The notes beneath the pieces are model-generated. The model was not told the origin of the DNA. It made no database searches and worked only from the letters and a program-made list of their open reading frames with translations. From contig JAUMUF010000001.1 in the NCBI GenBank assembly GCA_030530825.1, forward strand, positions 248,001 to 312,000: a stretch of DNA of 64,000 bases, read 5' to 3'. This DNA comes from a bacterium (GTDB taxonomy: Bacteria; Patescibacteriota; Saccharimonadia; Saccharimonadales; Saccharimonadaceae). The position numbers were made by a program, and so were the translations under genes. This document shows positions 1,960-2,415 of this stretch, piece after piece (position 1 is the stretch's first letter; each line of letters opens with the position of its first letter).

Positions 1960-2104
1960 ATCTGTAATTATATCATAGAGTTATAATAAAATAAACATAT
2001 TCTGCATCCGATATAATTATGTTAAAATATATCTATATTAAATAAACATAAGTTCATTGACAAATTATAATTATATTTCTAAATTAAAACATATTTTTAG
2101 TAAA

Positions 2105-2153
2105 ATAAAAATCCACCCGAGCACGGGTGGGCATCGCTCGGATGGATTTTTAT
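2105..2153. terminator. Long bidirectional terminator hairpin
   Basis: An 18-bp stem (2105-2122 with 2136-2153) ends in ATAAAAATCC on one side and GGATTTTTAT on the other, with A/T tracts on both flanks. The loop can form a small inner stem (CCACCC). Confidence 0.75.
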
Positions 2154-2295
2154 CCCTTCGACGCACCCAAGTGTAGGCTCGAAATTCGAAGCGTCTACCC
2201 ACCAAAATACACAAGGGGACGCCGGTCAAAGGGGTTATCGCGCATAATATTATCTTCTCTAAAAGTATAAGGAGGGAGATGAAAGGATAAAAGAA
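2105..2295 (-). ncRNA. Candidate structured RNA or attenuator upstream of the AI-2E permease
   Basis: The gap 1980-2415 holds no convincing gene. On the minus strand a TATAAT (2302-2307) could start an RNA near 2295. Its 5' end (2281-2292, UUUUAUCCUUUC) can pair with 2147-2159 (GAAGGGAUAAAAA) to close a multibranched domain. That second strand overlaps the 5' arm of a strong terminator hairpin at 2105-2153, so the two structures exclude each other, as in riboswitches. I found no match by eye to SRP, 6S, tmRNA, T-box, cobalamin, preQ1 or cyclic-di-GMP consensus motifs. It may instead be a free ncRNA ending at the terminator. Transcription is not shown. Confidence 0.45.
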
Positions 2296-2415
2296 GAAAA
2301 TATTATACACTGTAACGAATAGTATGTTCTTTTGACAAAATAGCAATTTATTTTATCAACTGTGTTTATAATAGCATATATTTATAATAAAGTCAACACT
2401 TATTTTGGAGATTTT

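Follow-up and report, generated by a model that had tools for sequence, protein, structure and literature searches.

Minus-strand positions 2361-2105 of the window – the whole 64,000-nucleotide stretch of Saccharimonadaceae DNA analysed here – almost certainly hold a stand-alone, conserved RNA gene of about 255 nt (Table 1). The gene lies between the divergent dprA and a gene for an AI-2E permease, which is on the same strand as the RNA and starts at 1959, about 145 bases past the terminator. A preliminary description had presented the region as a transcription attenuator or riboswitch of this permease, with a terminator hairpin at 2105-2153, a competing stem, and a GC-rich core. The hairpin is real and strong, at about 2149-2109 on the minus strand, and the core is indeed GC-rich (0.47 over 2161-2280, 0.56 over 2154-2233) compared with flanks of 0.15-0.20.

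The transcript had been placed to start near 2295, behind a TATAAT at 2302-2307, which we find to lie within the 5′ strand of stem P1. A better and conserved candidate, TTGACT-17-TATTAT at 2396-2368, is probably the promoter of the RNA: its two hexamers have 10 of 12 consensus matches, with a 17-base spacer and a TG ahead of the -10 hexamer, and the same layout (in the form TTGAC, spacer, TGnTAnnnT) stands 5′ of the RNA in 53 relatives, with conservation extending up to the promoter in all. With the 5′ end predicted from this promoter, the RNA is longer than originally proposed and starts about 66 bases further upstream; covariance model matches in relatives support the gene. Folded from the predicted start (2101-2361, minus strand), the RNA reaches -90.4 kcal/mol (z = -8.6 versus shuffles); the stretch first considered (2095-2300) has z = -4.0 on the minus strand and z = -2.0 on the plus strand. 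There is no conserved reading frame in the RNA, the median length of the longest internal frame among relatives being 28 codons, and a protein-coding reading of the 91-residue frame that overlaps the region was rejected. We infer that the gene yields a noncoding RNA transcribed from a constitutive promoter and ended by its own terminator.

Table 1. Positions of the RNA gene, its candidate promoter and its structural elements in the window, in 5′ to 3′ order of the RNA
Feature	Position	Strand	Sequence and remarks
Whole RNA gene	2105..2361	-	predicted 5′ end ~2361, 3′ end in T tract ~2105; ~255 nt
Promoter, -35 hexamer	2391..2396	-	TTGACT; predicted from sequence
Promoter, -10 hexamer, extended (TG)	2368..2373	-	TATTAT; predicted from sequence
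5′ hairpin P0	2332..2359	-	UUGAUAAAAU / AUUUUGUCAA; in minimum-energy fold
Stem P1, 5′ strand	2299..2316	-	GUUA, 2-base internal loop, GUGUAUAAUAUU; includes the TATAAT
C-rich P1 loop	2271..2278	-	CUCCCUCC; anti-Shine-Dalgarno-like
Stem P1, 3′ strand	2234..2251	-	AAUAUUAUGCGC, internal loop, UAAC; minimum-energy fold and covariation
Core stem P3, 5′ strand	2225..2233	-	CCCUUUGAC
Core stem-loop P4	2191..2222	-	GCG...CGC, inner pairs variable; covariation alignments
Possible pseudoknot partner of terminator loop	2196..2203	-	GGUGGGUA; would compete with inner P4
Core stem P3, 3′ strand	2154..2162	-	GUCGAAGGG
Terminator hairpin, then T tract	2109..2149	-	strong; in minimum-energy fold; stem covaries
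Terminator loop	2125..2135	-	GAUGCCCACCC

Secondary structure and covariation

From 5′ to 3′ the RNA is composed of the hairpin P0, the stem P1 with its CCUCC loop, the core stem P3, within which lie P4 and a variable hairpin, and the terminator; many relatives have a single-stranded GCACCUUAUACCCCC stretch between P0 and P1. P1, P3, and the terminator all covary. In alignments of 12 core sequences, of 16 full-length relatives, and of the window with four congeners – all made with MAFFT and without structure – two-sided changes are present in 14 of 29 pairs (6.8 in shuffles), 26 of 55 pairs (14.1 in shuffles), and 13 of 55 pairs (6.6 in shuffles), respectively. Among the 16 full-length relatives 90.5% of cells are paired, versus 35-49% in slid versions, and slid controls overall are 25-55% paired. 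When 52 sequences were fitted to the model, giving an alignment that leans to the structure, two-sided variation is seen at 26 of 29 pairs, with 255 such cells versus 66 in shuffles.

The pairs of P0 are kept with two-sided changes both in the 16 full-length relatives and in the window with its four congeners, and the corresponding counts for P1 (2316-2299 with 2251-2234), which in the window has two parts separated by a small internal loop, are 8 of 16 pairs and 6 of 16 pairs. P3 is 100% paired in the 12 core sequences, with two-sided changes at three pairs, and changes on both sides at 8 of its 9 pairs in the 52-sequence structure-fitted alignment. The inner pairs of P4 are shifted in the window itself. 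Clade 2 has UUGC/GCAA instead of GUUAG/CUAAC in the outer part of P1, with the internal loop at the same place.

Two further variations were seen among relatives. In those of clade 1 (columns 50-100 of alignment A2) a CUAAC located 5′ of P1 is also complementary to the GUUAG of P1, and strand exchange between this copy and P1 is possible; the copy is absent from the window. In distant members of the order (loci L078-L094) P4 gives way to insertions that reach about 100 bases and have conserved motifs of their own, e.g. CAGGCGCGCACC.

The competing stem on which the attenuator reading depends was said to pair 2281-2292 with 2147-2159. Complementarity to 2148-2159 does exist (12 pairs, including one G-U), but it is not a conserved pairing: the stem does not appear when the full RNA is folded to minimum energy, its 3′ strand shares bases with the covarying P3 (at 2162-2154), and in the five congeners 74.1% of its cells are paired versus 72.0% in shuffles, with a single two-sided change and 101 of 500 shuffles scoring as high. 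The two strands are therefore not conserved as a stem, and the idea of two mutually exclusive conserved folds, one of them the terminator, does not hold among the congeners.

Neighbouring genes and distribution

The RNA is independent of the genes that surround it. AI-2E lies downstream in one of 53 loci, that of the window, and in the other four congeners the first downstream gene is convergent, on the opposite strand; pth is convergent and downstream in 22 of the 53 loci, and in another clade it lies on the upstream side. Because the terminator and the fold are kept while the downstream gene changes strand and identity, the RNA is not a leader. That the permease gene has an attenuator or riboswitch leader, to which the order of genes in the window lends itself, is scarcely credible given that the competing stem is not conserved and that the terminator persists at loci with no gene for it to control. 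We reject it on the grounds of pairing and gene order, and for the order as a whole this reading is refuted.

On the other side dprA is divergent in 38 of the 53 loci, and the predicted RNA start and the DprA match are mostly 53-62 bases apart, a spacing kept in most relatives, so that the two promoters would overlap. This arrangement would suit a cis element of dprA, with the divergent transcript under the control of the RNA or of the RNA gene, e.g. through promoter interference or as an antisense to the dprA leader. We regard such a role as improbable, as 15 of the 53 loci have no dprA match upstream, one clade has pth there with the same RNA structure, and conserved structure over 255 bases is more than a cis role would call for. 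Within 2362-2415 of the window the RNA promoter and the dprA start overlap or nearly do so, and with the spacing kept the two genes may therefore be co-regulated.

In a DNA search of 61 genomes every congener had the region, and pieces of it turned up throughout the family; a search for relatives via the AI-2E protein found none. A covariance model of the core (R1) detects a single copy in 184 of the 198 family genomes, and in 137 of the 139 that are nearly complete and clean. In a phylum sample R1 matched all 32 genomes drawn from the order and, among about 348 genomes outside it, gave one weak match (E = 0.0016), which is expected by chance. A second model (R2), built from 52 sequences, matches 209 of 245 genomes of the class, namely about 206 of 213 in the order and three weak matches among about 32 outside it, with 16 match-less genomes taken as outside the order from a list sorted by kinship. 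The RNA is thus single-copy and nearly universal in the order, and close to absent elsewhere in the phylum.

The taxon names of the relatives come from a pattern scan of named genomes, in which 76 of the 80 matches listed bear Saccharibacteria or TM7 names, including oral TM7 and Nanosyncoccus; of the other four listed loci, the model does not match three (from Isoptericola, Krumholzibacteriia, and an unnamed bacterium). The fourth, on a contig labelled Nomurabacteria (L185), does carry the RNA, with 95 bits by the model, and the contig is probably that of a mislabelled Saccharibacterium. Carriage by viruses was also considered and rejected, with no exact match to a core pattern of the RNA in viral contigs.

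Saccharibacteria genomes are among the smallest free genomes known, and that nearly all genomes of the order keep the RNA in spite of this, with its loops preserved letter for letter, points to a basic task. The covariance models from this analysis would let annotators name the gene at once, and the availability of cultured Saccharibacteria with working genetics (PMC10633639) makes knock-out, tagging, and partner mapping feasible.

Known RNA families

The RNA matches no catalogued RNA family. Rfam at gathering score finds only four tRNAs in the window; a search of the RNA region with 4227 families at E up to 5 gave nothing meaningful, and the same 4227 families have no match in 20 relatives at E up to 0.1. 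Riboswitch models are without a match in the window, the RNA region, or the 20 relatives, in agreement with the initial impression that no known class is recognisable. The 6C family has no match in the RNA region or the 20 relatives, and 6S RNA (RF00013) none in the RNA region, the genome of the window, or the 20 relatives. A literature search, with subscription papers and preprints outside its reach, found no description of such a Saccharibacteria noncoding RNA.

Nor is it SRP RNA, tmRNA, or RNase P RNA. The tmRNA model (RF00023) has no match at the RNA region and the tmRNA of the genome is elsewhere, as is its RNase P RNA (RF00010, 237 bits). SRP RNA models (RF00169, RF01854) find nothing at the RNA region or in the genome of the window, and nothing above cut-off in 41 relatives, which would leave room for a derived housekeeping RNA of one of these three types that Rfam fails to recognise. 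This is very unlikely: tmRNA and RNase P RNA are accounted for, the SRP core motif is no commoner than in a reversed control, and the M domain of SRP54 (PF02978), to which SRP RNA binds, is absent from all five genomes of the genus that were searched, that of the window and those of four congeners, with the control positive in 14 of 14 genomes, such that an SRP RNA is not to be expected. With no such domain in the five genomes and no SRP RNA above cut-off in the 41 relatives, these bacteria may lack a signal recognition particle altogether.

C-rich loops and possible function

The most constrained letters of the RNA sit in loops and junctions and not in stems. CCUCC is present in the P1 loop of 51 of 53 RNAs and matches the core of the ribosomal anti-Shine-Dalgarno sequence at the 3′ end of 16S rRNA, and the terminator loop has the same GCCCACCC in 52 of 52 RNAs. 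Against the translation starts of 48 predicted window genes the P1 loop pairs with a mean of -8.1 kcal/mol, versus -6.5 ± 0.6 for shuffles and -7.9 for the anti-Shine-Dalgarno itself. The comparison, which covers one window, is a weak one, since any sequence with CCUCC would match Shine-Dalgarno sites and the starts were themselves chosen partly by Shine-Dalgarno strength. The terminator loop pairs with the same starts no better than shuffles, and was rejected as their binder. That the P1 loop matches anti-Shine-Dalgarno pairing and exceeds shuffles, whereas the terminator loop does not, favours an RNA that would touch ribosome-binding sites via P1; a specific mRNA target, sought within the window, was not found.

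For the same reason an internal pseudoknot is the preferred role for the terminator loop. A GGUGGG in the core is complementary to it in 53 of 53 RNAs, at a position that varies by clade, within P4 in some and beside P3 in others. Because an equally good GGUGGG-type match is present, per sequence, in about 9% of shuffled cores and the strands are invariant, the case for this possible pseudoknot rests on its universality and relocation and not on covariation.

The best explanation, which we offer tentatively, is a housekeeping RNA that acts in trans, likeliest by base pairing. Its CCUCC loop would bind Shine-Dalgarno sequences of mRNAs and so cover their ribosome-binding sites, and its terminator loop would either pair back with GGUGGG to lock the fold or be held by a protein. 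Speaking against base pairing, the RNA varies from about 240 to 380 nt across relatives, with elaborate clade-specific insertions in the core, and in this it resembles an RNA-protein particle more than a simple sRNA.

It is conceivable, if less favoured, that the same RNA is the scaffold of an RNA-protein particle or, in the manner of 6S, regulates a large enzyme, either RNA polymerase or the ribosome, without mRNA pairing. Its length, single copy, and near-universality are consistent with this, as are the concentration of invariant letters outside the stems and the large, well-folded core insertions of some clades; moreover, the role of 6S might be free, as the Rfam model finds none in the genome of the window, although a failed search does not prove absence. 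The RNA does resemble 6S in being stand-alone and single-copy with a long stem and no reading frame, but it has an intrinsic terminator hairpin with an invariant loop and no match to RF00013, and fold and covariation place P0, P1, P3/P4, and the terminator in series, with ends that do not close on each other and no long rod with a central bubble. The original alternative of a stand-alone RNA with a closing stem, like 6S, is thus right as to stand-alone, but the stem is a different one and the RNA is not 6S-like in any way tested. On a combined view, which we consider somewhat doubtful as a whole, this would be a housekeeping RNA new to the catalogues, perhaps working as an RNA-protein particle, that is part of the core genes of a whole order of episymbiotic bacteria with reduced genomes and acts on translation via a built-in anti-Shine-Dalgarno copy.

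Loops of this kind have precedents. The staphylococcal C-rich sRNAs and the streptococcal csRNAs block translation starts with loops that, as here, resemble anti-Shine-Dalgarno sequences, but they are shorter RNAs that often occur in several copies and have no sequence relationship to the Saccharibacteria RNA, which has no Rfam match. The 6C / B11 sRNA of Actinobacteria also has C-rich loops for G-rich ribosome-binding sites and is conserved in a large group. It differs in having no sequence or model match to the Saccharibacteria RNA, which is two to three times longer than 6C, and in lacking counterparts of its P3, P4, and terminator loop. In B11 a G tract in a 5′ UTR is the target of two C-rich loops whose action is redundant (PMC10470900). 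One clade of the Saccharibacteria RNA (loci L053, L061-L065, L067, L068, and L070-L073) has an extra hairpin in P1 with the loop UUACCUCCACUU, whose ACCUCC exactly reproduces the anti-Shine-Dalgarno core of 16S rRNA.
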